DNA from: a virus
Reading direction: 5' to 3' (one strand)
Length of the DNA: 20,037 nucleotides
Virus record (IMG/VR): IMGVR_UViG_3300007344_000353
Coordinates: 1 to 20,037 of that record
Position 1 is the first letter of the stretch. The number at the start of each line of letters is the position of its first letter. Of this stretch, positions 81 through 20,037 are shown piece by piece. Both the position numbers and the translations under genes were made by a program. The notes beneath the pieces were generated by a model, which saw nothing but the letters and a program-made list of their open reading frames with translations, was not told the DNA's origin and did no database searches.

Positions 81-98
81 ATTACCTCCAGAAATGAA

Positions 99-138: not shown

Positions 139-159
139 AGTCTGATAAGAACAAGAGGA

Positions 160-396: not shown

Positions 397-399
397 GTG

Positions 400-1549: not shown

Positions 1550-1561
1550 AGTCTAGCCTTT

Positions 1562-5552: not shown

Positions 5553-5560
5553 AGTCGTTC

Positions 5561-5758: not shown

Positions 5759-5771
5759 AGATAATTCGTAA

Positions 5772-5806
5772 TTACGGAAATCGGTTGATAGCGTCGGATG
5801 CGCTTA
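5772..5806 (-). promoter_or_regulatory. Candidate +1 (or -2) ribosomal frameshift window in the tail chaperone pair
   Basis: The zero frame ends CGA TTT CCG TAA. The downstream chaperone frame is open from 5803 and overlaps the zero frame for 29 bases, offset by +1. At TTT C (5780-5777) a phenylalanine tRNA could slip from TTT to TTC, just before the slow context CCG TAA, giving a 215-residue fusion (144 residues of the first protein plus 71 of the second). No classical -1 heptamer is needed, because the offset is not -1. A -2 shift would also join the frames. Confidence 0.4.
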
Positions 5807-6209: not shown

Positions 6210-6228
6210 GAATGCTCTCCCTTAAGCG

Positions 6229-6251
6229 AAAATCGGGGCATAATGCCCCGA
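6229..6251 (-). terminator. Intrinsic (Rho-independent) terminator
   Basis: On the minus strand TCGGGGCA and TGCCCCGA form a perfect 8-bp GC-rich stem around a three-base TTA loop, followed at once by TTTT. It begins four bases after the stop of the decoration-like gene and ends about 20 bases before the start of the chaperone gene. It probably acts as a partial terminator, lowering transcription of the chaperone and tape measure genes relative to the abundant tail tube protein. Confidence 0.85.
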
Positions 6252-6255
6252 ATCA

Positions 6256-6663
6256 CTACGCTGTGTTACCTGTATAGTAGATGTCGACATACAGCTCTGT
6301 GGTGCTGTTCGCGAATCCGAACTCACAAATGTACTCGCCACCTGATAGTCCGCTCTGTGGTTCAATCTTGCCAGCATCTCCACCGACAACATACCGCGTG
6401 TTCGCAGTCAAGCCACCACCAACTGTGACGGTTGCGCCGTGTGTTGCCACAAGCACGTATTCACCATCAGCTGCTGCATGAAGAGCGATGCCATACGCCA
6501 CTGCTGTTGCAGCCGCACTCGCATCGGCAGGCTTGACGCTGTTGCTGTCTGTCGGGTCAATGTACACGACATCATGCTTAGCGATCGTGCCACCTGCGAC
6601 ACGACATGCCATGTTCGCTTTATTGTCAGGAATTGCGACACCTGTGAAGGTTACGTTAGCCAT
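6256..6663 (-). CDS. Decoration-like structural protein (DUF2190-type appearance)
   Basis: The product has 135 residues and is rich in A, G, V and T. Its pattern (AGGTIAKHDVVYIDPTDSN, AVAYGIALHAAADGEYVLV, GGLTANTRYVVGGDAGKI, ELYVDIYYTG) recalls small phage head-decoration proteins of the DUF2190 type, which have a beta-barrel or beta-tadpole fold and coat the capsid. The resemblance is from memory of the pattern, not from a search. It lies after the major tail protein rather than beside the capsid gene, so it may decorate the tail tube instead. The ATG at 6663 has an AAGGAT ribosome site. It is the last gene before a strong terminator, as suits a highly expressed structural gene. Confidence 0.6.
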   Translation of the reverse strand: MANVTFTGVAIPDNKANMACRVAGGTIAKHDVVYIDPTDSNSVKPADASAAATAVAYGIALHAAADGEYVLVATHGATVTVGGGLTANTRYVVGGDAGKIEPQSGLSGGEYICEFGFANSTTELYVDIYYTGNTA

Positions 6664-6672
6664 AGGTTATCC

Positions 6673-7119
6673 TTAAGCAATTGTTGTCTCTGTGACTGGT
6701 CCATCGATGTTCAGTGTCACAGATAAGGTCTGAGGGTCTCCAGCACCAGCGGTTGCGTTAACAAGTTGAACTGAACCGCCAGCACGGACTTCGAAGTCGA
6801 ACTGAGTCGACCCGCTTGTACCATCAGGCTTCTGAATTTGCATACTGCGAACGCCTGCCTTGTTGCTTGCATGAAGCAACCATTCACGCATGTAGCCTGC
6901 GAATGATGTTGCACTGGTGTCATCGTAGAAGTTGACTGTCACAGTGCCCATGATGCCACCTTCAAGGCTGTCTGCCCATCGGTCGCCAAGTGTATGGAAT
7001 TGACCGCCATTGACAGTCATGTCCATTGTCACGGATTGAATGGATGTACTCACATCCTGAAGCGTGTCTGACGCATTGTCGAACTTCACGACAGCGTCAT
7101 GTTGTGCGAATTTAGCCAT
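6673..7119 (-). CDS. Probable major tail (tube) protein
   Basis: The product has 148 residues. It begins MAKFAQHDAVVKFDNASDTL and shows features usual in short tail tube proteins: a statement of which quantity is modified near the N-terminus (DVSTSIQSVTMDMTVNG), a GDRWADSLEGG turn, a beta-rich core (MGTVTVNFYDD) and a strand-rich end (PQTLSVTLNIDGPV). Such proteins stack as hexameric rings around the tape measure. It sits after the tail terminator and before the chaperones, the canonical position. The ATG at 7119 overlaps the upstream stop as TAATG with a GAGGAA ribosome site. Family assignment is from pattern and synteny, and no tail tube signature can be checked here. Confidence 0.75.
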   Translation of the reverse strand: MAKFAQHDAVVKFDNASDTLQDVSTSIQSVTMDMTVNGGQFHTLGDRWADSLEGGIMGTVTVNFYDDTSATSFAGYMREWLLHASNKAGVRSMQIQKPDGTSGSTQFDFEVRAGGSVQLVNATAGAGDPQTLSVTLNIDGPVTETTIA

Positions 7120-7397
7120 TATAGTTCCTCGCGTGTAGTTGATTTGATAATACCGACATCAACAAGTCGTTGATAGTCTGGATGCGTTGTATCCACGATG
7201 TCGATTGCATATCCAAGCAGTACATTGATGTCATTCTGTGGACGCTTCGCAAGGAATCCGTCACGCCAGACAACGCCATCAATTGTCACCTGTTCCGCGT
7301 TGATTGCGTCAGGATTGTCACTGCAAAATGCACCAATGTATAACTTCTCATTCGTGCGGATGTGCGACAGGTTACGTGTTACCTTGTAGATTGTCAT
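7119..7397 (-). CDS. Small protein of the head-tail/tail junction region, unknown function
   Basis: The product has 92 residues, with a beta-prone first half (YKVTRNLSHIRTNEKLYIGAF) and a mixed second half ending in TTREEL. There is no membrane segment, cysteine cluster or recognised motif. Its ATG overlaps the stop of the probable tail terminator gene (ATGA), and its own stop overlaps the start of the tail tube gene (TAATG), so the three are probably translated as a coupled unit. A role in the neck or in tail tube assembly is a guess from position alone. Confidence 0.65.
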   Translation of the reverse strand: MTIYKVTRNLSHIRTNEKLYIGAFCSDNPDAINAEQVTIDGVVWRDGFLAKRPQNDINVLLGYAIDIVDTTHPDYQRLVDVGIIKSTTREEL

Positions 7398-7852
7398 TCT
7401 ATGATTTCCTTCATCGTTAACGTCATCAGACAGCCATAGTAGATGTTCTCTGAATTGTCAGGGAACTCATAGGCATTCCATTCATAGTCAATTGCTTCAA
7501 TCTTCACGTTGTCCACAAGCGACATGTTCGGTCTGATTGCATCGATGTAGTTAGATGTATAGTCGATTAATTCAGGCAAGGCGTTATGGATACTTGTACC
7601 ACGCTTGACGCTATCGAATAACAGCAAGTCCGCTATCAGCCATGTGATGACAACTGTGCCATTATCGCCAAATGAGACACGCTCCATAGATTGTCCTTCA
7701 CTCTGCAATATCTGCATTGGAAAGATGACACGCGCTGGTGTACCTCTGATGGATGATGTTGCATTGTCAATACCATATACAACAGGTGTCTTGGTTGTCG
7801 TGTTGACTGCGATGCCTGCTAAGGCGTTGACGCATGACTTGATCTGGCTCAT
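7394..7852 (-). CDS. Probable tail terminator/tail completion protein
   Basis: The 152-residue product has the layout of tail terminator (gpU/gp17-like) proteins: an N-terminal helix (SQIKSCVNALAGI), a beta region around ARVIFPMQIL and TVVITWLIADLLL, a helical stretch (NALPELIDYTSNYIDAI) and a final beta part (YYGCLMTLTMKEIIE). It lies between the connector and the tail tube genes, the usual place for a protein that caps the finished tail and joins it to the head. The ATG at 7852 overlaps the connector stop as ATGA. Such proteins are weakly conserved, so the call rests on secondary-structure look and synteny. Confidence 0.6.
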   Translation of the reverse strand: MSQIKSCVNALAGIAVNTTTKTPVVYGIDNATSSIRGTPARVIFPMQILQSEGQSMERVSFGDNGTVVITWLIADLLLFDSVKRGTSIHNALPELIDYTSNYIDAIRPNMSLVDNVKIEAIDYEWNAYEFPDNSENIYYGCLMTLTMKEIIE

Positions 7853-8403
7853 ATTGCAATCCCTGACAAGCGGATGTACGGCTTCAACATCATGTTGATG
7901 TCTGCTGGCATCGGCTCTGGTGTGTCTTGGTCATTCTGGCGAACCCAGTGCAATATCAACTGAATGGCAACTTGCTTGATGGCATCTGGTGGTGTTGTGG
8001 AGTATCCCCAATAACCAACGATGCTAATGGCATCTTCCGGGCTGTCCTCGTAATCCCACACCACATCGGTGTCTGTCTTCAATTGCAACCCGTAGAAGGG
8101 TGCGTGATTGCGAGGCATGGTGACGTAATTACTTGATGCAATCACATCACCTGTACCGTTAGTCACCACTAGGCTGTCAGTTGTCGCAAGGTACTCATCG
8201 AAGTACAGCTTGAATCCATCAGTCTGTAACATGTAATCGAACTTACGCTCGCTGGTGTTACTGACTTCGAACACATTGTTCGTGATGGTCTCAATTGTAT
8301 TCTGAGCACGTGGTATGAGCGATGTAATCAGTCCATCATGGAACGTATCACTCGCGTCATATCCGCCTTGTTGCTTAACCTCTGCTAGTGTGACGTATGC
8401 CAT
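7849..8403 (-). CDS. Head-tail connector protein, HK97 gp6-like
   Basis: The product has 184 residues. The N-terminal half (MAYVTLAEVKQQGGYDASDT, then ITSLIPRAQNTIETITNN) matches the helical opening of gp6-like connector/adaptor proteins, in which a short strand and L.E.K.. helix are followed by a helix ending in I..... The later part DAIKQVAIQLILHWVR is the typical helix near the C-terminus. These proteins form a ring under the portal to which the tail docks. The gene follows the capsid and head protein genes and precedes the tail terminator, as in HK97-like phages. The ATG at 8403 has only a weak ribosome site, so it may depend on coupling with the upstream gene, which stops three bases earlier. 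Confidence 0.78.
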   Translation of the reverse strand: MAYVTLAEVKQQGGYDASDTFHDGLITSLIPRAQNTIETITNNVFEVSNTSERKFDYMLQTDGFKLYFDEYLATTDSLVVTNGTGDVIASSNYVTMPRNHAPFYGLQLKTDTDVVWDYEDSPEDAISIVGYWGYSTTPPDAIKQVAIQLILHWVRQNDQDTPEPMPADINMMLKPYIRLSGIAI

Positions 8404-8406
8404 AGT

Positions 8407-8859
8407 CTAGCCGATGATTTCATCAACACTCGCAAGGTCAAGCCCTGCGGTGTCGCTATAGTGTGCTGGTTCGCCAAGTACGATGACTGCCAAGTCGCAT
8501 GCAGCAGTTCCGACAATCACTTCAGCTTCAAGGAATTGCAAGCCTTGTGCAGCTGCTTCTTCTGCTGATACTTCGATGATGACTTGCTTGTCGCTGTCAG
8601 TACCTGCTTGTGTCAGTTGTGTTGCGTCCTTGCCTGTCACCAGTGTTGCGTGACTGCCCGGATTAGTTGATGCGCCACCGTTGATTTCGAAGTCGATGGT
8701 TGCGCTTGAACCCATCTCACCAACGCTCAGGATGAAGAGGACACGGCGGAAGTTGCTCATGTCAATTTCGTCTGACTGGTAGGTGTCCGCGCTGTATGCG
8801 TCTGGGTCAATTGTCCCGATGAGTGCGAGACGTTCGTTGAGTTGTGAAATGCTAGCCAT
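8407..8859 (-). CDS. Head-associated protein, possible capsid decoration protein
   Basis: The product has 150 residues and lies directly after the major capsid gene. It contains a helix-turn opening (SISQLNERLALIGTIDPDAY), a segment DMSNFRRVLFILSVGEMGSS with strong beta character, then ATIDFEINGG and several further strands. I recall similar small proteins after capsid genes in other siphophages, and a decoration or minor head protein is likely, but I cannot name a family. A good GGAG ribosome site lies eight bases before the ATG at 8859, consistent with high expression. It is acidic overall and lacks cysteine clusters, membrane spans or catalytic motifs. Confidence 0.6.
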   Translation of the reverse strand: MASISQLNERLALIGTIDPDAYSADTYQSDEIDMSNFRRVLFILSVGEMGSSATIDFEINGGASTNPGSHATLVTGKDATQLTQAGTDSDKQVIIEVSAEEAAAQGLQFLEAEVIVGTAACDLAVIVLGEPAHYSDTAGLDLASVDEIIG

Positions 8860-8870
8860 ATGCTGTGCTC

Positions 8871-10103
8871 CTAGTCGTTGAAGTTAACGTATGCGGATAC
8901 TTCGTAAGCCGAGCCCGGTCCACCAAGTGTGATGGTATTTTGCAACCATGGCTTACCGTCGAGTTCTTGACCGAAGCGCCATGCGTCTTGACCTGTGTCG
9001 AAGAAGCGGTGTTCGGAGTAGTCTACATACAAGCCACCGAATTCGAACAGTGCGTATGCGCCCAAGTCAGCAAGAACAACACAACCGCTCGCGTCAGCTT
9101 GTGGCAAGTGTTCGCTGAAGTAGATAGGGTAGCCACTCAATGTCTGTGGTTGACCACCTGCGATATTTTGCAACCATACCGCACCACCTGTACCGACTTC
9201 CAACTTCATCAAGTCAGTCATCATTGATGGGTGCATGATCCATGCCACACGTCCTTGCAATGTCTTGAGACGTGCTGTCATTTTCGCAACGTCGTCAACC
9301 TTGAAGGTGCTGTTGGTGGTTGGTGTCACGTCAATCAACGCATCGGCATTCAAGATACCAAGTGGTTGCGCGTTACCTGTACCGTTCAGGATGAAGTATT
9401 CCAATTTGCTCTGGTATGCAACACTGATGAGGTTGCGAAGCAAGGATTCAAGTGCAGGTACAGATTGTACCATTTTGCGTGATGCCTTCACCAAGCCACT
9501 GACAGCATCATTGGTGCTGAATGTTACTTGGTCGAAGCTACCATCTGTCTCTGTGTAGCTACCACCTTCGGCGCGATTCGCTGTTGTGATACCAGATGCC
9601 ATCGCTGTGTCACCAACGCCAGCTGTTGGAGCTGTGAACATGTCGAGGCTTGGATATGTACCAGCAGGACTAGAGACGTTCATGCGCGATACACCAGCAA
9701 CGACTGCGCTGTTCTGAATCGCAATTTGTACCATTTCATTGTAGAAGGTATCTGGCACAAGGTAGCCACCATCAGCACCGCTTCCGCTTGTCTGTGCTTT
9801 GTAGCTTCCATAGATTTTGTTCAAGCGTTTCTCATCGCCACGCTTCACTGCCATCGCCCAGTCGCCAAATGACTTGATGTTGCTGTCAGCAGTACCGCCA
9901 TCTACTGTGAAGTAGCCTGATTTGCGGATTGCTGGGCTATCTTCCATGTGTGCTGTGATTTTAGCAAGCGCATCAGACAAGCCCTTAACGGTTGCCTTCA
10001 TGTCTTCTTGGCTTTCCATCACACCTTTGATTGCATTGTCAATTGCGCCTTGAACGCCGTTGTCGGTTGCTTCAGGCTTGACGTTTTGAGTTTCATCACT
10101 CAT
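8871..10103 (-). CDS. HK97-type major capsid protein translated from an internal start within the protease-capsid fusion
   Basis: ATG at 10103 (codon 208 of the longer frame) is preceded four bases upstream by AGGTGA, within the longer GAGGTGA, a much stronger ribosome site than that of the full-length start. Translation from here gives a 410-residue HK97 major capsid protein. It has a helical delta/scaffold region at about 1-60, a probable cleavage region before the beta-rich segment around GYFTVDGG (about 62-70), then an N-arm and the typical core (GGYLVPDTFYNEMVQIA, SLISVAYQ-like helix region, ILNGTGNAQPLGILN). The protein forms the icosahedral shell. Its ratio to the protease would be set by the internal site. 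Expression from it is inferred from sequence. Confidence 0.75.
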   Translation of the reverse strand: MSDETQNVKPEATDNGVQGAIDNAIKGVMESQEDMKATVKGLSDALAKITAHMEDSPAIRKSGYFTVDGGTADSNIKSFGDWAMAVKRGDEKRLNKIYGSYKAQTSGSGADGGYLVPDTFYNEMVQIAIQNSAVVAGVSRMNVSSPAGTYPSLDMFTAPTAGVGDTAMASGITTANRAEGGSYTETDGSFDQVTFSTNDAVSGLVKASRKMVQSVPALESLLRNLISVAYQSKLEYFILNGTGNAQPLGILNADALIDVTPTTNSTFKVDDVAKMTARLKTLQGRVAWIMHPSMMTDLMKLEVGTGGAVWLQNIAGGQPQTLSGYPIYFSEHLPQADASGCVVLADLGAYALFEFGGLYVDYSEHRFFDTGQDAWRFGQELDGKPWLQNTITLGGPGSAYEVSAYVNFND

Positions 10104-10724
10104 GTGTTCACCTCGTGTAATTTGAATATGTAAGTTGTTCGCATCACCTTCGGTTGCCTTCGTCTCACCGACCTCTGCAACGTTCAATTCTGCATCATTA
10201 CTCTGACTAAGTGGCAACAGCTTCAAGCCCTTGTAGGTCGCCTTGTTACGGTAGTCTGCTGGTGTGTGTGTCAGACTGGCATCTGCGCCTAAGCTCCACG
10301 TCTTCACATGGTACGCATTGCCTGTCTTCTCGCGCTCTACTAAGTGCGATGGTACACCACTTGACCAACCGAGGCTCTTGCCTTCCTTCTGTCGCGCCTT
10401 AATCAGTTCTATAACCATCTTATCATAAGCATCGGCTTCGTCAAGCTTGCCACGAATCCACACGCCCATGTCGTCTTGACCAATCTCTGCCTTGATGCCA
10501 CGATTCAGCTTGTGTGTCTTCAGCACAGGATCGAAGCCATGATTGAAGTACATTGTCGCTGTACCCTTGCCTTCAACCAAGTCGAAATCGGTCTTGCTAG
10601 TGAAATAGTCGCCATCGAAATCGGCTTCATCAGGCGACCCGTACAGCACCAAGTAACCTGACACTTCATTGTTCTCAGTCATCTTGACATTGCTACCAAG
10701 ATGAATCAGTTGGTTCTCATTCAT
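8871..10724 (-). CDS. Prohead protease-major capsid protein fusion (HK97 type)
   Basis: A single 617-codon frame joins a prohead protease to a capsid protein. Residues 1 to about 170 are an HK97-family (S78/U35-type) protease. The catalytic histidine is probably H62 in FNHG, and a serine lies in KSLGWSSGV (S117, S121 or S122). Typical flanking text is SGYLVLYGS, GDYFT and the turn near TPADYRN. Residues 208-617 are the HK97 capsid protein, with a helical delta region (about 220-262). Residues 171-207 form a polar linker. In most phages these are two genes. Here no stop codon separates them, but an internal ribosome site does. The ATG at 10724 overlaps the preceding stop as ATGA and has only a weak AAAGAG ribosome site, so full-length fusion should be made in smaller amounts. 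Confidence 0.88.
   Translation of the reverse strand: MNENQLIHLGSNVKMTENNEVSGYLVLYGSPDEADFDGDYFTSKTDFDLVEGKGTATMYFNHGFDPVLKTHKLNRGIKAEIGQDDMGVWIRGKLDEADAYDKMVIELIKARQKEGKSLGWSSGVPSHLVEREKTGNAYHVKTWSLGADASLTHTPADYRNKATYKGLKLLPLSQSNDAELNVAEVGETKATEGDANNLHIQITRGEHMSDETQNVKPEATDNGVQGAIDNAIKGVMESQEDMKATVKGLSDALAKITAHMEDSPAIRKSGYFTVDGGTADSNIKSFGDWAMAVKRGDEKRLNKIYGSYKAQTSGSGADGGYLVPDTFYNEMVQIAIQNSAVVAGVSRMNVSSPAGTYPSLDMFTAPTAGVGDTAMASGITTANRAEGGSYTETDGSFDQVTFSTNDAVSGLVKASRKMVQSVPALESLLRNLISVAYQSKLEYFILNGTGNAQPLGILNADALIDVTPTTNSTFKVDDVAKMTARLKTLQGRVAWIMHPSMMTDLMKLEVGTGGAVWLQNIAGGQPQTLSGYPIYFSEHLPQADASGCVVLADLGAYALFEFGGLYVDYSEHRFFDTGQDAWRFGQELDGKPWLQNTITLGGPGSAYEVSAYVNFND
10101..10113 (-). promoter_or_regulatory. 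Internal ribosome binding site at the capsid start
   Basis: On the minus strand 10113-10101 reads AGGTGAACACATG: AGGTGA, four spacer bases, then the ATG of codon 208. With the preceding bases it is GAGGTGA, closely matching the anti-Shine-Dalgarno end of 16S rRNA. In the full-length frame the same bases encode TRGEHM. The site coincides exactly with the domain border between protease and capsid protein, which argues against chance. Confidence 0.8.
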
Positions 10725-11107
10725 CGTAAGCTCTTTCTAATCTCATTACGGACAATACCAGTGATGCGCTGTTCATTCTTGCGCACAACATAATTGACGC
10801 TGTGCATGCGCCATACACGTCGGAAGTAACGATTACGCTTGTCACCTTGTACGTATTCCATATATCCGACGTTGTTGCCAAGCTCTGCCACGAATCCACC
10901 CGAGCGCAACTTGAACGCCCACTTCTTCTTCAAGTCGTTGGTACGCTTGTATGTCGTTCCGGGTAGCTGGCGAGGATACTCTCGCACCTTCGCAATCAAG
11001 TCAGTGGCACTTGCTGTGATACCACGCTTCAAGCCTTCCATCTGCTTGGCACGTTGCAACAGGTTGTTGACACGTGGAATGCCTGTGATACGGATGTCAA
11101 TTTGCAT
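10721..11107 (-). CDS. Small head/neck protein, HK97 gp10-like
   Basis: The product has 128 residues, is strongly basic and contains many R and K. The pattern MQIDIRITGIPRVNNLL, a helix, YKRTNDLKKKWAFKLRSGGFVAELGNNVGYMEYVQGD resembles gp10-like (HK97 gp10, also annotated as tail/neck) proteins, where a GT.RL..S region is followed by YA.Y.E.G. In HK97 such proteins lie after the connector and act at the head-tail junction. Here the gene lies before the protease, an unusual place. The ATG at 11107 overlaps the preceding stop (TAATG) and has an AAGGTG ribosome site. A basic DNA-contacting head protein is the alternative. Confidence 0.6.
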   Translation of the reverse strand: MQIDIRITGIPRVNNLLQRAKQMEGLKRGITASATDLIAKVREYPRQLPGTTYKRTNDLKKKWAFKLRSGGFVAELGNNVGYMEYVQGDKRNRYFRRVWRMHSVNYVVRKNEQRITGIVRNEIRKSLR

Positions 11108-11814
11108 TATGCACCTTCTATCGGCTCATCGTACTCAAATGATACAACACATCTGCAATTCACGTGCGCAGGTGGTAAGCCCATGCCATCGAAGCGCACA
11201 TTCGAGCCAGTCGTCTCCGACCGCTTGCCATCCAGTGGTGCGCATATCGGACAGACAAGTTCATCGCGTCCAGTCTGCCATACACCACGCATCGTCACGC
11301 CTTGTGATGACAGCTCATCAATAACAGGCTTCTGTCCTTCATTCGCAGCACGTGTCGTCTCTGTGACTGCGATCTGCTCTGCCTTCGCTGGACTGTACAG
11401 TCTACCGACGCGCTCTGTCAGTCCTGCTCTGTCAATCTCACCTTCGAAGAAGCGTACAATGTCCTTCTGTACAACTTCACGGCGATAGTCCACCATGTCA
11501 CCAGCAATGCGTGGCACATAGTTACGCGCCCACTCAACAGCGCCTTGATTAATGACATCTACTGACACGCCTGTGAAGCCACTACTCGCCATCATCGCGC
11601 CTGACGCTTCAATGAATGTGCGTTCCAGTGGTGTCTGGAGTACCTGTTGCAATTCTGTCGCAATCTCACGGTAGACCTCTGGTGTCAGGTTGTCCAGATT
11701 CGGTGGGTCGCCAATGAGCTCAAGGATGCGACGGCGTGTGCGACTATTGAACTGTGCGACATCGCGTGCCAGCGCAGATTCAAGCTCGCGTCGTCTCTCA
11801 TCACTAATAGGCAT
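11107..11814 (-). CDS. Head morphogenesis protein, SPP1 gp7/Mu F-like
   Basis: The start is placed at ATG 11814 (235 residues), because GAGAGGA lies just before it and it overlaps the portal stop by only 11 bases. The frame is open to 11862. The C-terminal third has the family signature. It begins TETTRAANEGQKPV, then DELVCPICAPLDG and GLPPAHVNCRC, giving C188, C191, H217, C220 and C222, a cysteine/histidine cluster that could bind a metal. Proteins of this family sit on the portal side of the procapsid, and a few copies enter the head, aiding assembly or DNA ejection. Position after the portal gene is canonical. Confidence 0.85.
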   Translation of the reverse strand: MPISDERRRELESALARDVAQFNSRTRRRILELIGDPPNLDNLTPEVYREIATELQQVLQTPLERTFIEASGAMMASSGFTGVSVDVINQGAVEWARNYVPRIAGDMVDYRREVVQKDIVRFFEGEIDRAGLTERVGRLYSPAKAEQIAVTETTRAANEGQKPVIDELSSQGVTMRGVWQTGRDELVCPICAPLDGKRSETTGSNVRFDGMGLPPAHVNCRCVVSFEYDEPIEGA

Positions 11815-13648
11815 CTGCTGTCCTCTCATGGTTGTGCTTGTGTATATCAATTGCGCCATCAAATATCATGTCAATCTCATCGCGTGATTGCGCGTCTTCT
11901 AACTGTGCTGTGATGGCAGAATGAAGCACCACTGGAATGTAATCAGATTCAAAGTCCACGTTCGCAGAGCCCTTCGACTTGTACGCCTTGCTTGCCTTGC
12001 GTCGCCACTTGTCCAGATGACTGCTGAATAAGTCTGACACGCTCTTCTCTGCTTCATCGGCTGTCAACATCTGCTCACGGCGTGCTGTCGCCCATGTGTA
12101 CCCAGCATCACCACCCCACAGCATCCATGCGATGTATCCATTCGTTGGATTCGATGGGTCGCCCCAACCATCGCGCTTGTCAACCTCATGCCGTCTGAAG
12201 TAGCTGTACATGCTCAATACGTCTGGTGGTAGAATCTCACGTCCACCTGCAATCTGTCGTCCACGCGCCAAGCCGACACGTGTGCCACCACGTCCGAACT
12301 CTTCACGCAGTTCAAGCCCACGACGCGCATTGTCTCGCATAGTGTCGTTCGGATAGAAATCAATGTGACGATACTGCGCAGGTATCGGCTTGATGTCCTT
12401 GCGTTCATCGTCTGGCTTGTAGCCATCAAGTTCTATCTCATCCATCTCATCATCATCGACAAGCTGAGCTTCTGGTATCTCTGGCTCTTCAATCTCCATC
12501 TCATCAGGCTCTTCCATGTCGTCATCCATGTTGACACCTAGACGCTCCCACTGGTCGTCTGTCAGGTCGTAGCCTAGCACTTCCATTGCCAGCGTCAACG
12601 GCATGCCAACATTCACAAGATTCAACAGCGAACCACTACGCATCGCCTCGTCTGTCTGGAATACTTCCAACTGTTGCTCTCTGAAGATGAGCTCACCATC
12701 AATGTCGTAGTGGTCGAAGTACCGATTGAACATGGATTCAATCTTGCGTGCCAACGGTATGATTGTCTTCTCGTAGAAGTGGCGATTGTCCTGCTGTGCT
12801 GTTGCGAAGTTCGTGGCATTGCTGAATAGCAGTGACTGTGGAATACCAAGTGCCGTGCTGATGTCCTCGCGCTTCGCTGTTGTTAGCTCTGGCACTGCCA
12901 ACTCTGACATCGGTGAGCCGATTGTCTCGAACTCAATGTTCGTACCCACAGGAGCGACACGGTGCGCTGTCTGGTTACCACGCCCGAACAGTCTGTCTAG
13001 TATGCTCTTGGTGCGTTCCTGCTCTGATTCTGGATACGCTTGGAAGTCTTCAATCTTGGCGATGGTTGGATTAATTGCGCCTGCTTCGAAGTACTTGACA
13101 GCGTGTTCATCGATGGATGACAGCAAGCCACTGGCACGGATTGCAGCAGTCGCTGGCGCATCACCTATGGCAATCTCTGACGTGCGTGATGGTATCCATG
13201 CGTGTGCCAGTTCGCCAACCTCATAGAAGTATTTCTGATTATCGCGCAGGTTACGCTCGAATCCGACAAGCCCTTCAGTCGCATCTGTAATCAGCTTGAT
13301 TGTCTTCGGATGGAAGCGTCTCATGGTACGATTGCCACCCATCGCATTCTCTTCCATACATGCGAACATCGCACCAGCAAGCAAGTAATCACCTACAAGC
13401 TCATTGAGGATGGTTGCGAAGTCAATCTTCACATTCGCATATTCCAACGCATCATCATCGCGTGGCAGGTTGACGATCGCCTCGGCAATCACGTTGATGC
13501 CACGATATAGCCACGGTACATGCTTGGCTAAATCATAGACGTTGCCATCGGTTGGATCACCGAACACGCTTGTCCATGCCTCTGGTGGCATGTTACGAAT
13601 CGGAATAGACTTCACGCCGTTCACGGTTGTCATCTTAATATCAGTCAT
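11804..13648 (-). CDS. Portal protein with an additional C-terminal domain
   Basis: The product has 614 residues from ATG at 13648 (TGATG overlap with the terminase stop). Residues 1 to about 370 are a phage portal of the HK97/SPP1 class: VPWLYRGINVIAEAIVNLP at the start, the stem/crown helices around TAKREDISTALGIPQSLLF and AQQDNRHFYEKTIIPLARKIE, and a final RSGSLLNLVNVGMPLTLAMEV. An acidic linker (about 375-415, rich in D, E and M) leads to an extra domain at about 425-525 with ARRGLELREEFGRGGTRVGL, then SYFRRHEVDKRDGWGD and IAWMLWGGDAGYTWA. I recall this segment in other phage head-region proteins without a defined function. A helical tail follows. The portal is the dodecameric DNA gate at one capsid vertex. 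Confidence 0.85.
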   Translation of the reverse strand: MTDIKMTTVNGVKSIPIRNMPPEAWTSVFGDPTDGNVYDLAKHVPWLYRGINVIAEAIVNLPRDDDALEYANVKIDFATILNELVGDYLLAGAMFACMEENAMGGNRTMRRFHPKTIKLITDATEGLVGFERNLRDNQKYFYEVGELAHAWIPSRTSEIAIGDAPATAAIRASGLLSSIDEHAVKYFEAGAINPTIAKIEDFQAYPESEQERTKSILDRLFGRGNQTAHRVAPVGTNIEFETIGSPMSELAVPELTTAKREDISTALGIPQSLLFSNATNFATAQQDNRHFYEKTIIPLARKIESMFNRYFDHYDIDGELIFREQQLEVFQTDEAMRSGSLLNLVNVGMPLTLAMEVLGYDLTDDQWERLGVNMDDDMEEPDEMEIEEPEIPEAQLVDDDEMDEIELDGYKPDDERKDIKPIPAQYRHIDFYPNDTMRDNARRGLELREEFGRGGTRVGLARGRQIAGGREILPPDVLSMYSYFRRHEVDKRDGWGDPSNPTNGYIAWMLWGGDAGYTWATARREQMLTADEAEKSVSDLFSSHLDKWRRKASKAYKSKGSANVDFESDYIPVVLHSAITAQLEDAQSRDEIDMIFDGAIDIHKHNHERTADAY

Positions 13649-14817
13649 CAAATAAATACCCTCGCTGGAATCGTTCGTGCCTTATTAGCCAATGCCAATG
13701 CAATGACTGTATCATCGTGCATGCCATTCGGTGCTGTATAGCGATAATTACCAGATGGCAACCGCTCAATGCTGAATGCTTGCAACTCATTCAATAATAT
13801 CTGATTATCAGGAATACCGATACTTTCCTGCTCAAATGCCAACGCCAAGCTATTGATAATCTCTTGCTTGCTCTGCGCTGTTGTCTTGAATGGCTTCACA
13901 GGTAAGCCCATCTTGCGAAGCTCCTCAATGTTCGGGTCACCGATACTATTCTGCTCGGCTAAGATTGTGAATGGCTTCAATCGCTGGTACATCGCGTTCA
14001 AGCGTCCACGTTGCAATGTCCAGTCTATCTGATTGAATCTATCCATCTCAATCACGTGCCCGGTGTCCACATCAATTGCCACGACAACGGTGTAATCATT
14101 CGCACGCCCCCAGTCCACTCCGAAGGCGACGCGCTTGGCATTCTCTGGAGCAGGTTGGATGCACGCGCGCAGGTTACGGAACACCGCACCGCCATCATCA
14201 AGGAACTCTGCCATGTACTCCTGACGGAACACACGCTCTGGTGTATTGCGCTTGATGTCTTCTAGCTCATCATGGTCAATCATCGGATTGTCGTAACTTG
14301 TGAAGTGCCATGCCTTCCAGTTCGGTTGCTCTGGGTCAAGTCCATTCTGGTATAACTCGAAGAACCAATTGCGTCCGTTGGTTGATGACAAGAAGTCAGC
14401 CGAGCCCTTCGATTCCAGCAACATCGGACGGATGATGAATGGAAATACATTGCCATCAATGAAGGCGCACTCATCGAATATCGCATGATCCAGACCTTGA
14501 CCACGCAACTCGGAATCTGCGCTCTTCACAGACAAGAAGCCACCTGATGGAAATTGGATGAGTCGCTCTGACTTGTTGATGTATACGCCTGTCATCGTTC
14601 GGAAGATGTTCTCGAAATCACGGAAGATGCGCTGTCCTGTATTGTACGTCGGCATAATCCACCACACACGCTTGTACAAGGCACGCTGTATCGCACGTAT
14701 CTTGAATGCCTCTGTCTTACCAAATCGACGACCAGCAACGCATACATTGAAGCGCGTCCTGCTGTTGATGATGTCAATCTGGTTGATGTGTGGCTTAATC
14801 GGTAGTTGTAATTTCAT
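13648..14817 (-). CDS. Terminase large subunit (TerL)
   Basis: This is the ATP-driven packaging motor with a C-terminal nuclease. The start used is ATG 14817 (389 residues). A TTG at 14835 would add six residues. ATPase motifs are Walker A VAGRRFGKT (about residues 27-35), Walker B HAIFDECAF with adjacent D115 and E116, and the coupling motif SSTNG (about 144-148). The nuclease (RNase H fold) has D235 in AFGVDWGRANDYTVV, E288 in ILAEQNSIGD, and D368/D369 in GMHDDTVIAL. All expected catalytic residues are present. It overlaps the small subunit gene by 23 bases and the portal by one base. At 389 residues it is shorter than typical TerL (about 420-550), but both domains are complete. Confidence 0.95.
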   Translation of the reverse strand: MKLQLPIKPHINQIDIINSRTRFNVCVAGRRFGKTEAFKIRAIQRALYKRVWWIMPTYNTGQRIFRDFENIFRTMTGVYINKSERLIQFPSGGFLSVKSADSELRGQGLDHAIFDECAFIDGNVFPFIIRPMLLESKGSADFLSSTNGRNWFFELYQNGLDPEQPNWKAWHFTSYDNPMIDHDELEDIKRNTPERVFRQEYMAEFLDDGGAVFRNLRACIQPAPENAKRVAFGVDWGRANDYTVVVAIDVDTGHVIEMDRFNQIDWTLQRGRLNAMYQRLKPFTILAEQNSIGDPNIEELRKMGLPVKPFKTTAQSKQEIINSLALAFEQESIGIPDNQILLNELQAFSIERLPSGNYRYTAPNGMHDDTVIALALANKARTIPARVFI

Positions 14818-15148
14818 CAGGATACACGAACTCAATCTTCAAGGAATTGCCATCAGCTCCACTGTGCTCATGGCGTTCGGTGTAACCACGCTCCTTGCCG
14901 ATTGTCTTCAATGCGAATATTGTTGCTGTCACGTCGCCATCCAATATCTTGTTGTGCAACGTCATCTCTGCCATATCTAAGAAGCCAGCGCGTGCGTCCG
15001 TGACTGCTTGTTGACAGATGTCGTACCGCTCAATATAACGGTACACTGTCTTGCGATCACATCCGAGCTTCTTCGCTGTGTACGTGATGAAGCCCTTCGT
15101 CTCTATGATTGCATCTGCTACTTCTTGAGCAGTATATCTCTGTGCCAT
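14795..15148 (-). CDS. Terminase small subunit (TerS)
   Basis: The product has 117 residues. An N-terminal helix-turn-helix at about 5-40 (YTAQEVADAIIETKGFITY, then CDRKTVYRYIERY) would bind the packaging site. A central helical region (about 42-95), rich in A, M and L, is typical of oligomerisation. A polar C-terminal tail (SGADGNSLKIEFVYPDE) could contact the large subunit. It directly precedes and overlaps TerL. The ATG at 15148 has a strong AAGGTGG ribosome site. The cos or pac site it recognises is not evident; it may lie in or near this gene. Confidence 0.85.
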   Translation of the reverse strand: MAQRYTAQEVADAIIETKGFITYTAKKLGCDRKTVYRYIERYDICQQAVTDARAGFLDMAEMTLHNKILDGDVTATIFALKTIGKERGYTERHEHSGADGNSLKIEFVYPDEITTTD

Positions 15149-15180
15149 AATTCCACCTTTTTATAGTGTGACATGTGACG

Positions 15181-15570
15181 CTACGCATCTTCAATCGGTG
15201 GCTCTGGTATCGTTAAGTCGTTCTTGCGTAGCTCATGTTCAAGCTGTGCCACCCGTGCTCTCAATAGCTTAATCTGCTCGGCTTGCTGATTCTTGTAGGT
15301 CTCGAGTTCGGCGTTGCGTGTCTCCAAGTCCTGCAATCGACTTGACATCGCCGCTATGGTGCGCTCGTTCTCATCGACTCTGTCCATTAGCCTCCGCATC
15401 ATTTCCGTCTGTGTTGCTGTCACGTCCAATGACTGCCCAAGCATAGAATCTTCCTCGGGCTCTGCGCTCATCAGCTTTTCGGATTTCACAATCGCTCTGA
15501 TGATGACTGCAACGATTGCGCCAACCGTACCAGCAACTGCAATCGCATTTTCTAGGTTCATGTTGTCCAT
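15181..15570 (-). CDS. Small membrane-anchored coiled-coil protein, unknown function
   Basis: The product has 129 residues. Residues 9-28 (IAVAGTVGAIVAVIIRAIV) form one membrane span. Residues about 50-115 are a coiled coil with regular leucine, methionine and charged positions (MMRRLMDRVDENERTIAAM, then LRARVAQLEHELRKN). It ends in a proline-rich acidic tail. It lies between the accessory genes and the terminase, behind a promoter candidate. The ribosome site before ATG 15570 is weak. A second ATG at 15561 gives MNLENAIAVAG. Possible roles are a holin-like or lysis-timing protein or a membrane anchor. No family signature is visible. Confidence 0.7.
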   Translation of the reverse strand: MDNMNLENAIAVAGTVGAIVAVIIRAIVKSEKLMSAEPEEDSMLGQSLDVTATQTEMMRRLMDRVDENERTIAAMSSRLQDLETRNAELETYKNQQAEQIKLLRARVAQLEHELRKNDLTIPEPPIEDA

Positions 15571-15630
15571 TGTGTTCTGTGTCCATATTTAACCTAATCT
15601 AAAAATGACCGCATGGTACGGTTCATCTCC

Positions 15631-15639
15631 ATTATAACA
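15631..15639 (-). promoter_or_regulatory. Extended -10 promoter candidate for the packaging/structural genes
   Basis: On the minus strand 15639-15631 reads TGTTATAAT, a perfect TGnTATAAT extended -10 element, in the 75-base gap between the nuclease gene and the 129-residue membrane-protein gene. No good -35 hexamer lies 17 bases upstream, which extended -10 promoters can tolerate. It is the only such element I noticed in an intergenic position and lies at the head of the terminase-to-tail gene series. Confidence 0.5.
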
Positions 15640-15645
15640 TATGCG

Positions 15646-16254
15646 TCAATAATCATTCTTGGAGTCCTTCCACTCATCGTATCCGTCCTTGTGACTGATG
15701 TCTTGCTTGTACATGTAATTCGATAGCCGATGCAATTCTTCCTTCTCATCATCCGTCAAGTGGTACAAGCCACGCTCCATTGATTCAAGCGGGTAGTATA
15801 CAATCTGCTTCCCGACTGCTGTGAAGTTGTCCTTCACCAATGGGTAGTTCAATGTCTTGTTGCGCCACTGGATAGTAGTGGGACGCTCTAACACAGACAA
15901 CCAATTGCCATACACCTCACCAAGCACTTCATCCACGAACATCAAGTACAATGGAATCTTGTGTTGCTTGACAATCTGCTGGTACACGTCGCGGTGTGCG
16001 ATGCTGATACCAGTGTCTGGGCATCCCTTGCCTACAAATTCAGGCTTGGAATAGCGTGCGGATACTGCCTTGACATCCATTGCGATGATGTTGAAGCTAT
16101 CACGTCTAATCAAGAGGCGGTCAACAGGATGCGGGCCTTCAGTCTTGATGGGATACACGTGATACAATCCCTGATCGTGGACAAGTCTATCAACTAAGGC
16201 TTCAGCATAATCACCCTTCGTTGCCATGATGGTGTCTTCAAATTTACGTGGCAT
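15646..16254 (-). CDS. PD-(D/E)XK-like nuclease
   Basis: The product has 202 residues. The arrangement fits the PD-(D/E)XK fold: an N-terminal helix with an acidic residue (GDYAEALVDRL, E18), then HPVDRLLI (D45) and IIAMDVKAV (D60, K62), spaced as D-X14-D-X-K. The pattern resembles Holliday junction resolvase-like and restriction-type endonucleases. A later YQQIVKQHKIPLYLMFVDEV reads like the strand-helix after the active site. The gene is coupled to the methyltransferase upstream (its ATG at 16254 lies one base after the stop) and has a GGAG ribosome site. Substrate and specificity cannot be read. DNA recombination/replication or restriction are both possible. Confidence 0.72.
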   Translation of the reverse strand: MPRKFEDTIMATKGDYAEALVDRLVHDQGLYHVYPIKTEGPHPVDRLLIRRDSFNIIAMDVKAVSARYSKPEFVGKGCPDTGISIAHRDVYQQIVKQHKIPLYLMFVDEVLGEVYGNWLSVLERPTTIQWRNKTLNYPLVKDNFTAVGKQIVYYPLESMERGLYHLTDDEKEELHRLSNYMYKQDISHKDGYDEWKDSKNDY

Positions 16255-16255
16255 C

Positions 16256-17869
16256 TCATTCTCCTACTCTCGCCTTCGATTCAATGTATGATTGCTCATC
16301 AGCATCAACCAAGATACACCGACGGTTGAGCTCACGTGACGCGATGCCTGTGCTTCCACTACCAGAGAAGAAGTCCAGCACCAAGTCGCCCGGAGCAGTG
16401 TGCGCCTTGATGATGCGTTCCAATGCGCCCTGTGGCTTCGGTGTGTAGTGCAATGTCTCCTTGCGTGTCAGTTGCTCTGGTATATCTGTCCAGACGTTGG
16501 TGATGCGCTTGAATTCACTCTTCACAGCGTAGCCACCCATGCCAACCTTGAACTGATTCGGTTCATCGCCATACTGCTCATCAAGATTCCAGATGAACTG
16601 GTTATTATCCTTGACGTACCATAGAAGCTCTTCACGTGTGTATAACCAACCTCGCACTGTACCGCGTCCACGTCGCTTCTGCCATGTAATCCAGTCACGG
16701 AAGATGAAGCCGAGCTTGTCCAGCAGTAGCTTCTGATGAATAATCGAATCACTATTCGCACCGATTGTCCCCCAGATGTAGAAGTTAGCAGTGGGCTTCA
16801 TGACGCGCAATGACTCAACCATCCATTGCTCACACCATACGAGGTAGTCGTCTATAGACTGCCACTGATTATCCCAGTCATCATCGACAACGTTGTAATA
16901 CGGTGGGTCAATCAGTATGAGGTCAATGGATTCATCTGGTAAGGTGCGCAGGAATTCAGTGCAATCGGCATGATGGACTTGGATGTCATCAGGTAGAATG
17001 GCGGTGCTTGCCTTGATGGCGAGTGATTCCTTCAATGACTCCCTGTCTGCATCCTTGCGTTGAAGCTCAATCAGCTTGTGATAGCGTGCGATGCTCTCCA
17101 GCGCGTCCAGTACCTGCTTGTATGATGCCTCTGCGAAATCAAGCCAGTCATCCATCTCCTCGCCATAATGGAAGCCACCTGTTGTCGCAATCTCTTCGAA
17201 GGTGTCATTACTGCCATCCTTGCCAGTGCTCTTGTACAGCCGTGACAGCACAGCAACCTTGTCCGCATCATCACCAGCGTACTTCAAGGCGACATCAATA
17301 ACAGGTTGTGGTTGCGACTTCATGGCATTGGACAGCAACGATGCGCGATGTATGCTGATGTCACCAGAGCGCGCCTTATCCTTGATGGCATCTGGTGCGT
17401 CGTTGAGCACTTGCTTCACCTTGTAGATGTTGCCTGCTGATGTCTCGGCAATGCGTGCAAGTTCCTTCTGTGTCTTGATAGCGTCCGAACTTTCTATCAA
17501 ATTTGATAGAATGTCTGTGCGCTGTCCTTGATTCTGCTTAGCCATCTCTGCGATTGTAGATTCCATCTGCAATGCCAGCTCAGTACGGTTGAATGGTGTC
17601 AGGTTACGGCGTGCCAACTGATTGCGAATCATCCATAGCTTCACTTCCTGACGACTAGCGAACTCCTTATATATTGTCTTGAATGCTATGGTGTGCTTGT
17701 GGCAGATTGCGAAGCGGTTGTGTCCATCAATCAACACGTCGCCATCCTCTGTCTCCCAGACAACAAGCGCATCACGACAACCTTCTTGCAGAATAGATTC
17801 TTCCAGCTTCTGGAGCTCTTCTGCTTGCAGTGGTGGAATCAGTGCCTTAAATTCTGGATCAATAATCAT
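16256..17869 (-). CDS. ParB-like domain fused to a DNA methyltransferase (N6-adenine/N4-cytosine type)
   Basis: The product has 537 residues. Residues about 1-90 are a ParB/Srx-like nucleotide-binding domain with VLIDGHNRFAI (D48, H50, N51, R52 region). A helical middle (about 95-290) contains a helix-turn-helix-like stretch near TQKELARIAETSAGNIYKV. Residues about 295-537 are the methyltransferase: motif IV DPPY at 321-324 comes first, then HYTPKPQ (about 474-480) and motif I VLDFFSGSGSTG (about 497-508). That order (IV before I) marks the beta class, which methylates adenine N6 or cytosine N4. Such ParB-methyltransferase fusions occur in phages and mobile elements and may protect phage DNA from host restriction. 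The ATG at 17869 overlaps the GIY-YIG gene stop (ATGA) with a GAGGA ribosome site. Confidence 0.88.
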   Translation of the reverse strand: MIIDPEFKALIPPLQAEELQKLEESILQEGCRDALVVWETEDGDVLIDGHNRFAICHKHTIAFKTIYKEFASRQEVKLWMIRNQLARRNLTPFNRTELALQMESTIAEMAKQNQGQRTDILSNLIESSDAIKTQKELARIAETSAGNIYKVKQVLNDAPDAIKDKARSGDISIHRASLLSNAMKSQPQPVIDVALKYAGDDADKVAVLSRLYKSTGKDGSNDTFEEIATTGGFHYGEEMDDWLDFAEASYKQVLDALESIARYHKLIELQRKDADRESLKESLAIKASTAILPDDIQVHHADCTEFLRTLPDESIDLILIDPPYYNVVDDDWDNQWQSIDDYLVWCEQWMVESLRVMKPTANFYIWGTIGANSDSIIHQKLLLDKLGFIFRDWITWQKRRGRGTVRGWLYTREELLWYVKDNNQFIWNLDEQYGDEPNQFKVGMGGYAVKSEFKRITNVWTDIPEQLTRKETLHYTPKPQGALERIIKAHTAPGDLVLDFFSGSGSTGIASRELNRRCILVDADEQSYIESKARVGE

Positions 17870-18387
17870 GTGTTGTCCTCATCTAAAATAATGTAATCCT
17901 GCTGTTGCTTCTGTGCGTCAATCATACCATTTGCGAATGCGGACATGCTGTTAAGGTATGCTTGCTCCGATGGTTGCATAGAGCGTTGCCACTGATTGTC
18001 TGCGATGATGTATCGCCACCCAGTGGCATCCTTCAGTGTGATGATTGTCACGTGCGGACGCTTGTACGTGCGAATCTCTTCATAGACATCTTGCATCCTG
18101 CCATTATAGCGTGCGCAGATGTCCTCGATGTCGTTGTCGTCTAAGGCGAACCATTCACCATCGACGCGCTTGTGTTCATAGTCTGTATGTAGTCGCTTCT
18201 CCATTACGTGCCTGTCCTGTGTTCGAATTAATACAGCATAGCGCACATCCAGTGGCAACTTGACACCGAATGTACGCAGTCTATTCTCTGGGTTGCTGGT
18301 CTTGCCTATCTTGTAGTAATCTGTACCGATGCCTTGAAGGACGTATACCCAGCCAGATCGTTGTTGCTTACGTCCTTCAATAGTCAC
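17866..18387 (-). CDS. GIY-YIG (T5orf172/Mug113-like) nuclease-domain protein
   Basis: The product has 173 residues from a GTG start at 18387; no closer ATG would keep the domain. Residues 12-82 match the T5orf172/Mug113 variant of the GIY-YIG fold: GWVYVLQ (Y15), then YKIGKTSNPENRL (K26-T30, R36), then MEKRLHTDY (E63, H67) and DGEWFAL (E78-L82). The tyrosine, arginine and glutamate of the catalytic set are present, so an active endonuclease is plausible. Residues 100-173 carry a separate region (VTIITLKDATGWRYIIADNQ, then an S/Q-rich tail) that may bind DNA or a partner. The gene lies between the helix-turn-helix modules and the methyltransferase. Homing-type or repair roles are both open. 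Confidence 0.85.
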   Translation of the reverse strand: MTIEGRKQQRSGWVYVLQGIGTDYYKIGKTSNPENRLRTFGVKLPLDVRYAVLIRTQDRHVMEKRLHTDYEHKRVDGEWFALDDNDIEDICARYNGRMQDVYEEIRTYKRPHVTIITLKDATGWRYIIADNQWQRSMQPSEQAYLNSMSAFANGMIDAQKQQQDYIILDEDNT

Positions 18388-18390
18388 TTT

Positions 18391-18867
18391 TCATTGCGCC
18401 GTCACTAGTTGGTATTGCTTGATGGCATCGCGTGCTAATCTGTCCTTGTCGAACCATGTCATCCAGTAGAAGTATTCCAACCGTGCCATTGTCGTTCGGT
18501 GTACTGGTGTGAATCCATGGTATTCGTAGATTTTACAAATGTAGTTGTTGATCGTGGTACGTGACAAATCAAGCTCACGCTCCATGTCTGGTGCTGACAT
18601 ATACGGTGCATCAACCCAGAGACGCAGGACACGCTGGTAACGTTCTGGCATGTCCTTCTTCAAATGCCGTGTCTTAACTTTGATGTAGCCTAGCCGATGG
18701 AATAACGTGACGCGCTTGAACGTGCCATGAGGCTCTAAGCGATCTAGCATATACATCATTGTTCCGCGATGGACGTATATGTTGTCGACAATGTCCTGAT
18801 CACGCGCCAACGGATTCGTGTACAACTCACGTAATATGAGATTCCATGTCGGGTTCGATGTGTACAT
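18391..18867 (-). CDS. Paralogous double helix-turn-helix protein, copy B
   Basis: The chosen start, ATG 18867, has a GGAG ribosome site five bases upstream; the frame is open to 19026 but that would overlap the previous gene. The 158-residue product has an N-terminal helix-turn-helix-like half with LYTNPLARDQDI (about 15-26), RLGYIKV (about 58-64), a LuxR/GerE-like second half (MERELDLSRTTINNYICKIY, about 95-114), and the C-terminal motif EYFYWMTWFDKDRLARDAIK (131-150). The same layout appears in the two neighbouring genes upstream, so this is a gene family made by tandem duplication. DNA binding is inferred from the helix-turn-helix pattern. The C-terminal motif is not one I recognise. Confidence 0.75.
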   Translation of the reverse strand: MYTSNPTWNLILRELYTNPLARDQDIVDNIYVHRGTMMYMLDRLEPHGTFKRVTLFHRLGYIKVKTRHLKKDMPERYQRVLRLWVDAPYMSAPDMERELDLSRTTINNYICKIYEYHGFTPVHRTTMARLEYFYWMTWFDKDRLARDAIKQYQLVTAQ

Positions 18868-18889
18868 TATCGCTCCTATATCGGCTCTG

Positions 18890-19384
18890 TCATGATACAG
18901 ACATCCGTTGAAGTACGTTGTATTGCATCTTCGCGTCACGTGCGAGGCGTTCGGTGTCGAACCATCCCATGTGTGCATAGAATCCGTGGCGACTACGATT
19001 GCGTGTCTCAGACATCGGCATGCCAAAATAGTTGTATGTATATTTCATGGTCATTGTCATGGTATGTGTCGTGTAGCCTGCGATTTCTGCCAAATGTCGC
19101 AACGACCCTGATGGTGCTTGTTGCATGGCACGCAATGTGCTGTTAACCATCGCAGAGCCACCCTCTGGCATGACATCTGGTAGTTCGATGTAGCCGAGCA
19201 TGTGATACAACTGCACACGCGATTGTGTGTGTAGCCCTAACTGTGCAGCAGTGTATGAAACTGCCGACACTGATGTGTATAGCGTATTAGCAATGTCCAC
19301 ATCACGTGCCAGCGGATTCGTGTACATGTACAATAGTATCTGTAACTGCGATGCTGTCATGCCTTGCTTGTATAGTGGTCTCAT
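18890..19384 (-). CDS. Paralogous double helix-turn-helix protein, copy A
   Basis: The product has 164 residues. The ATG at 19384 overlaps the upstream stop (ATGA). The layout equals that of copy B: N-terminal half with YTNPLARDVDIANTLY (about 21-36), HMLGYIELP (about 61-69), a second helical half (LRHLAEIAGYTTHTMTMTMK, about 95-114) that is less LuxR-like than in its neighbours, and HGFYAHMGWFDTERLARDAK (133-152). Identity to copy B is high at YTNPLARD and at WFDxxRLARDA but low elsewhere, so divergence is old or rapid. Genes of this set probably act in regulation or DNA recognition. I do not know the family. Confidence 0.75.
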   Translation of the reverse strand: MRPLYKQGMTASQLQILLYMYTNPLARDVDIANTLYTSVSAVSYTAAQLGLHTQSRVQLYHMLGYIELPDVMPEGGSAMVNSTLRAMQQAPSGSLRHLAEIAGYTTHTMTMTMKYTYNYFGMPMSETRNRSRHGFYAHMGWFDTERLARDAKMQYNVLQRMSVS

Positions 19385-20037
19385 GTTCTCTCCTGTAGTG
19401 CTTCAAATTGTGCGTGCGCATCGTCTGCCAATCGGTGCATGTCGAACCAGCCCATGTACCAGTAGAAGCCGAGGCGTTGGTACGCTTTCGGACGGAATTT
19501 TCGTGTGTACCCGAGCTTGTCATACATCCTGTAGATGCGATTGCTCATCGTCTTCTCAGGTACTCCAAAATGTGCGGCGGTGTCTTTTTGCGTTGCGCCC
19601 GGGTTGACGCGCCAATAATTCAGAATCTTCTGTGGCAGGTGCTTCGGTACATGCACATAACCCAACCGTGTCAACATCGCAATTCGTGATGATGTCGAGC
19701 CATTCTGATCCCATAGCGCGGCGTGGTATGTCATGTTTGAGCAATACGTCTGTGCTATAACCTCGCCTCGCGTCGCAAATGGATGCGTATAGATGTAATA
19801 CAGCACCTGTTGACGTGCGAATGTCGATTCACGTGGAAATAGTCGAGGTGGGCGCGGTTTTTCGTTCTCACGTTGTAGCCATACCGCATCACGGTTCATC
19901 TTCGCACGGTTCAACCATCCCATGTGCGCATAGAATTCAATGCGTCGGTGGTCGCCTCGCGTTTTCGGGTCTGGTACAAATCCATTGGCAACTGCGAGCT
20001 CATTCACCAGCCGTGACACGTAATCACGTACAATGCC
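19381..20037 (-). CDS. Paralogous helix-turn-helix protein, copy C, 5' end cut by the window edge
   Basis: The frame is open to the last base (20037), with no stop before the GTG at 20019, so the gene probably starts outside; 218 residues are seen. It holds one and a half modules. Residues about 1-56 (counted from the edge) are the end of a first module, with FYAHMGWLNRAKMNRDA. A linker rich in P and R follows. The second module (about 70-218) has YYIYTHPFATRGEVIAQTY, RLGYVHVP, a LuxR/GerE-like KDTAAHFGVPEKTMSNRIYR and FYWYMGWFDMHRLADDAHAQ. The C-terminal helix-turn-helix (MSNRIYRMYDKLGY) is the clearest of the family. This copy shows that modules can be fused in one chain. Confidence 0.75.
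   Translation of the reverse strand, partial: GIVRDYVSRLVNELAVANGFVPDPKTRGDHRRIEFYAHMGWLNRAKMNRDAVWLQRENEKPRPPRLFPRESTFARQQVLYYIYTHPFATRGEVIAQTYCSNMTYHAALWDQNGSTSSRIAMLTRLGYVHVPKHLPQKILNYWRVNPGATQKDTAAHFGVPEKTMSNRIYRMYDKLGYTRKFRPKAYQRLGFYWYMGWFDMHRLADDAHAQFEALQERT

Follow-up and report, generated by a model that had tools for sequence, protein, structure and literature searches.

A few uncultured phages of one lineage, with genomes of 27-30 kb, carry, between their replication and packaging genes, a tandem array of paralogous genes that encode copies of one protein module, predicted to consist of two helix-turn-helix (HTH) units of the NarL/LuxR type. On balance we favour the view that the array encodes phage transcription regulators that bind DNA, from a family that has expanded within this lineage and whose recognition helices have diverged, the paralogues acting on different operators. 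The family itself, the predicted fold of the module, its internal duplication, the position of the array, the turnover of its content and the apparent confinement to one phage lineage were all computed here. The module family is genuine and apparently undescribed, and an unusual tandem expansion, but it is built of a known type of domain.

The phage genome and its relatives

The DNA analysed (the window) comprises positions 1-20,037 of the viral contig IMGVR_UViG_3300007344_000353, and is 20,037 bp in length. At 99.8% identity it overlaps a second contig of 30,341 bp (G002, also L003 below); window 345-20037 corresponds to G002 1-19693 and window 1-336 to G002 30006-30341, with the end-to-end gap of G002 bridged by the window at 337-344. 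Since the window spans both ends of G002, the phage genome is circular or circularly permuted, with a size of ~30.35 kb. Two related contigs have overlapping ends, G003 (28,454 bp, with a 151-bp overlap) and G012 (27,319 bp, with a 125-bp overlap), so that together with the G002 junction the three genomes look essentially complete. All three are classed as linear in IMG/VR.

Pattern scans of 2.9 million viral contigs identified five that carry the family beyond the window's own record. These are L002 and L003, both near-identical to the window, L012 (G003), L013 (G004) and G012.

A tandem array of modular genes

The original prediction was based on three minus-strand open reading frames with shared motifs at 18391-20037 of the window. 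These are real, with the order of the motifs and an 8-residue spacing maintained, and are:

19381..20037, minus strand: gene A, of which the 3′ part lies in the window, encoding the C-terminal half of module A1 and the whole of module A2
18890..19384, minus strand: gene B, 164 aa, one module; ATGA overlap with gene A
18391..18867, minus strand: gene C, a single module in 158 aa; start most likely the ATG at 18867, with AGGAG upstream

Pairwise BLASTP comparison of A, B and C gave E values of 1e-14 to 1e-20 over ~150 residues, and the additional C-terminal half module in the window part of A gave 2e-5 to 6e-4. The most likely start of C is the ATG at 18867 rather than the TTG at 19026, because the L013 orthologue likewise has a 158-aa open reading frame and nucleotide homology between the two contigs begins 13 bases before the ATG.

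A chain of one and a half modules had been described, but this arises where the end of the window cuts gene A. The complete gene (L003:7039-8004) encodes 321 aa containing two full modules. A look for more copies to the right of the window had been suggested, and genes D (161 aa) and E (167 aa), of one module each, were found there. The full array in G002 therefore comprises five genes and six modules, i.e. D, E, the two-module A, B and C; the earlier count of at least 3.5 modules in three genes was of real copies, but fell short of the whole. BLASTP between the six modules gave E values from 1e-7 to 1e-22, and in the module alignment they are 19-31% identical. They take up 971 codons of 30.35 kb, up to about a tenth of the genome.

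There are three modules in G003 and four in G012. The G003 array consists of F (double, 307 aa) and G (169 aa). In G012 the array has the single-module I and the double J, which is complete once the ends of the contig are joined. Outside its array G012 has in addition a solo module K (L041:1717-2214, i.e. G012:19216-19713), encoded by the other strand, where it is flanked by pentapeptide-repeat and SSB-like genes of the divergent operon. The complete copies are all intact open reading frames with no internal stops.

The predicted structure of the module

A model of B was built with AlphaFold2 using a 15-row alignment of the family (pLDDT 92.7, pTM 0.85). The first half contains helices at residues 11-22, 28-35, 39-51 and 56-62, and the second half at 78-89, 95-102, 106-119, 132-139 and 144-163. 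Each half is thus modelled as three HTH helices followed by a short fourth helix ending in GYI or GWF, so HTH folds are present in the prediction for a single module. The corresponding model of A (pLDDT 89.7, pTM 0.67) has four units, the first of which, in A1, lacks helix 2. The first unit of both A1 and F1 looks degenerate, F1 being shorter in this region. Modules A1, D and E are not basic.

The second half had been likened to LuxR/GerE domains, and comparison of the models with known structures agrees with this. The top rows of VIA-align for B residues 72-141 are mostly NarL/LuxR DNA-binding domains (VqmA, ComA, NarL, VraR, GerE, RcsB and StyR), matched over nearly the whole domain length. 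The values of Z are 6-6.5 with rmsd of 2.3-2.7 over 58-60 of ~66 residues, and A 72-144 reaches Z of 7.7; as Z below 8 may reflect a common arrangement only, and the models are predicted, the assignment is at the level of the fold. It derives from these matches and not from membership of GerE by profile. In the alignment FYxHMGW coincides with helix 4 of the NarL/LuxR-type domain, while the C-terminal helix begins with WFDxxRLARDA. In the first unit the equivalent of helix 4 is RLGYI. The FYxHMGWFDxxRLARDA motif of the original prediction is therefore present, but corresponds to helix 4 of the second HTH together with the helix that follows, and not to a separate domain. In gene B it lies at:

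18932..18982, minus strand: stretch encoding FYAHMGWFDTERLARDA (residues 135-151 of B), covering helix 4 in the second HTH unit and the first part of the helix at the C-terminus

For the purposes of annotation, FYxHMGWFD can be used as the signature of helix 4 of a NarL/LuxR-like unit. It is not invariant, reading FYWMTWFD in C, FYAGRGWFD in K and FSVWGWFD in I.

The R-to-G spacing is 8 residues both in R..L...LGYI of the first half and in R..FY..MGWFD of the second. Alignment of the first half with the second by hhalign gave 4e-8 over 58 columns. As a control, the HTH of terS from the same phages gave 5e-3 over 26 columns with the first half and 7e-5 over 18 with the second, and other HTHs were weaker. 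The two halves of the module are homologous, the result of an internal duplication, the first having diverged from a unit of the kind seen in the second. The module would then be two tandem four-helix units of NarL/LuxR type. The earlier suggestions of a tandem family of two-HTH modules, of expansion driven by duplication and of a regulator-like nature are supported.

Searches for related proteins

A match of the whole module to a described family was sought in the profile libraries, and no specific family emerged. The GerE profile of Pfam matched two of 15 members with a best E of 0.031, and G scored 13.3 bits, below the gathering cut-off of 23.5. Gene A exceeds the Pfam gathering scores of HTH_24 (34.9 vs 21.9) and MarR_2 (31.9 vs 27), and F and G exceed that of HTH_24, while B, C, D, E, I, J and K fall below the HTH_24 and MarR cut-offs. 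The MarR family phrog_1687 matched A at 2.2e-11. This profile also matches 13 of 14 control genomes, and was rejected as a specific family because it is evidently a generic HTH model. No Ltr, RinA or ArpU profile was among the Pfam, PHROG and NCBIfam matches of the family.

The module family is apparently restricted to one phage lineage. Searching ~50,700 phage records by tblastn with B and F found no homologue, and A gave one match at chance level (E 4); no homologue of A was found in 72,500 plasmid records. Peptide-pattern scans of 85,000 species genomes, using the module alignment and the portal, returned nothing, although these scans are insensitive and distant relatives could escape them. 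A search of PDB sequences with the family profile gave short HTH matches only (best E 0.0098). Foldseek gave no match at E <= 0.001 in either the PDB or BFVD, with weak top matches to SETMAR and Pax-6 (E 0.14-0.16).

We note some weak structural matches (E 0.008-0.11) to the BFVD entries A0A141HRX2, A0A141HSI2, A0A141HSI3 and A0A141HRW7, and Q2XUW5, Q2XUW6 and Q2XUW9. They fall into groups with neighbouring accession numbers, which could point to several multi-HTH paralogues in other viruses as well.

Variation between modules and turnover of the array

In a comparison of 12 modules the recognition helices rank with the least conserved segments, at mean pairwise identities of 10% and 16%. The most conserved parts are GYIE and GWFD, at 71% and 74% mean identity. 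The one close orthologue of C, C′ (L013:365-841), is 85% identical to it, and 20 of the 23 replacements lie inside the two HTH cores that make up 87 of 158 residues (Fisher P 0.001, for this one pair). C has evolved faster than its neighbours, with a dN/dS of 0.26 compared with 0.03 for terL and 0.09 for the methyltransferase. This pattern fits a changing specificity, and equally a relaxed constraint, in the single pair available.

Array content has changed even between close relatives. From 13 bp before C the window shares 5.9 kb with L013 at 94% identity, yet upstream of C′ L013 has another paralogue, H, with 57% identity to F2 of G003. In the tree A2, F2, G and H group together (94/92), A1 groups with F1 less surely, and few of the other forks are settled; with one starred branch, the tree is a weak guide to orthology. 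A 50-bp DNA match of 88% suggested recent gene conversion at the motif. However, codon identity between paralogues is barely above expectation (0.50 vs 0.40), and we do not claim this.

These observations could be read as a set of DNA binders, each with its own target, that diversifies by turnover. In this view every paralogue would be directed to a different sequence of the host or a competing phage, for host promoter shut-off or superinfection control, and modules would be gained, lost and swapped between phages. We regard this as unlikely, while more probable than the other alternatives to be discussed. Hypervariable recognition helices on a fixed scaffold, the concentration of the C/C′ changes in the HTH cores, the rate of change in C, and the variable copy number with the exchange of H would all be expected. 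Yet the dN/dS of C/C′ is well below 1, relaxed constraint explains the data from one close pair equally well, and the codon identities leave recent shuffling inside modules unsupported. A little less probable is the bolder form, in which the array comprises diversifying bipartite DNA readers, with a fixed GYI/GWF scaffold and rapidly changing recognition helices, that retarget the promoters of host or rival phages through module swapping, as the transcription-factor counterpart of a variable recognition cassette. If each paralogue does read a different site, the array offers a compact natural set for studying the change of specificity of duplicated regulators on one scaffold.

Genomic position and probable function

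The array is part of one long operon of the genome, on the minus strand of the window. Genes for dCTP deaminase, an O-like initiator and DnaB come before it, and a GIY-YIG nuclease, a ParB-like/N6-N4 methyltransferase fusion, terS, terL, portal, capsid and tail genes come after. A divergent block encodes SSB, a Holliday-resolvase-like protein and others. The elements following the array are:

17866..18387, minus strand: GIY-YIG-type nuclease (MUG113 / T5orf172), 173 aa, directly after the array
16256..17869, minus strand: fusion of ParB-like and N6/N4 DNA methyltransferase, 537 aa
15631..15639, minus strand: putative late promoter, an extended -10 element TGTTATAAT ahead of the coiled-coil/terS/terL block

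In all three of G002, G003 and G012 the array lies between the DnaB/O-like genes upstream and a methyltransferase followed by terS/terL downstream. A regulator that switches on late genes is usually found between the replication and packaging genes of a phage. For the position that defines late transcriptional regulators of the Ltr/RinA kind we have followed PMC13123087, and the arrays lie between DnaB and terS/terL in the three genomes.

In each of the three genomes an extended -10 element TATGNTATAAT lies between the methyltransferase block and the packaging block that follows it, at window 15639-15631 on the minus strand, G003:23843 and 23965, and G012:1272. In G012 it is the sole extended -10 site, and in G002 it is one of two in the direction of the operon, the other being near the operon start. 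This exact comparison across genomes was informative, whereas scans for sigma-70 promoters gave as many matches as in shuffled sequence. The idea that the modules read an array of sites was not borne out, as no repeated operator site was found in the intergenic gaps examined.

In the reading that we favour, the two HTH units of a module would enable one protein to read a two-part site, and a double-module protein up to four parts. R..L...LGYI and R..FY..MGWFD would be the helix-4 scaffolds of the two units, and the divergence of the recognition helices would lead the paralogues to bind different operators. Some of these regulators may act on the putative late promoter before the packaging genes, and others elsewhere. 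They probably act at the early-to-late switch, given where the array lies, the predicted fold, and the presence in each genome of an extended -10 element ahead of the packaging genes. We infer DNA binding, a role in transcription, a late-gene target and the sign of regulation. Several observations count against this reading: A1, D and E lack basic character, the first unit of A1 and F1 has a degenerate look, and the number of modules varies (six, three and four). The GIY-YIG and methyltransferase genes separate the array from the putative promoter, so that the two are not directly adjacent. Moreover, K of G012 belongs to the second early operon, and a tie to the late switch cannot hold for every member.

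Separately we note an AT-rich, single-copy intergenic element of ~32 bp, CCGTTRTATATATATANARTCAYATAWATAAC, that lies outside the window at G002:29717 (L052:4642-4672), G003:15545 and G012:323. It is conserved in three otherwise diverged genomes, and its relaxed form has four matches among 2.9 million viral contigs, all in the same lineage. It is possibly an operator, an origin, a recombination site or an RNA hairpin.

Proteins encoded between DnaB/O-like replication genes and the terminase might instead be structural or replication DNA binders that recognize an origin or packaging site, or organize the genome, with no role in transcription. The AT-rich element could provide such a site, being directly after the array in G012. 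However, in G002 and G003 the element is not beside the array, the phages separately encode a terminase small subunit and an O-like initiator, and several divergent paralogues would be unnecessary for one site, making this role rather improbable. We give slightly less credence to the array as a source of DNA-targeting subunits for the neighbouring methyltransferase or GIY-YIG nuclease, as a unit of modification, homing or self-protection. A DNA methyltransferase follows the array in three of three genomes, with a 4-base overlap with gene G in G003, and the nuclease of the window, with no other recognized domain, comes first after the array. Yet the methyltransferases are non-orthologous, G003 and G012 having a D12-class enzyme (identified by eye from motifs) in place of the ParB-like N6/N4 fusion, and the nuclease is absent after both of those arrays, so that there is no fixed enzyme partner. 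Furthermore, phage methyltransferases normally have their own recognition domain. Lastly, the modules are very unlikely to be functionless remnants, of either a transposase that bound DNA or a duplicated regulator, left to drift where the genome tolerates it; transposase-derived and paired domains also have bipartite HTH folds (compare the weak SETMAR and Pax-6 matches) and C evolves fast, but every complete copy is intact, the dN/dS of C is 0.26, and the scaffold residues are kept across about 20-30% identity.

Comparison with known systems

Transcription regulators built from these modules would resemble, but differ from, several known classes. The four-helix HTH unit is shared with the NarL/LuxR/GerE domain (PF00196; NarL, GerE, RcsB and VqmA, including phage VqmA 7dwm), with the FYxxMGW and LxxxLGY elements of the family in place of helix 4. 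By contrast, each module of the family combines two such units and lacks a receiver, PAS or ligand-binding domain, and the family matches the GerE profile only marginally. There is likeness also to the MarR-type winged helix (MarR_2, HTH_24, PHROG 1687) in the scores of A, F and G. As to the beta-hairpin wing that follows the recognition helix in that class, DSSP finds only isolated bridge residues in the models of A and B, which have short helices followed by a GYI/GWF turn and no strand of three or more residues.

Gp47 of Streptomyces phage Chymera (AMS01606.1, annotated as a transcriptional regulator) also has two LuxR-type HTH units in one phage protein. Its two GerE stretches are above the cut-off (E 1.5e-7), and Foldseek relates it to the family with a probability of 0.99 and a TM of 0.52 over 148 columns, the ending of helix 4 reading AYRAGWLD. 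It differs in being a single gene with no array, and in sequence it resembles the family only weakly (hmmsearch E 2e-5, with one sequence searched). Among 50,697 phage records this protein was found in Chymera alone.

Ltr and RinA of staphylococcal phages are different again, being single genes of ~130 aa, and no profile of the libraries used identified the array family as RinA or ArpU. Late regulators have been described as one gene each, while the array has up to six paralogous modules. Where the cited late switches use one small regulator gene, this 27-30 kb lineage has three to six tandem two-HTH modules.
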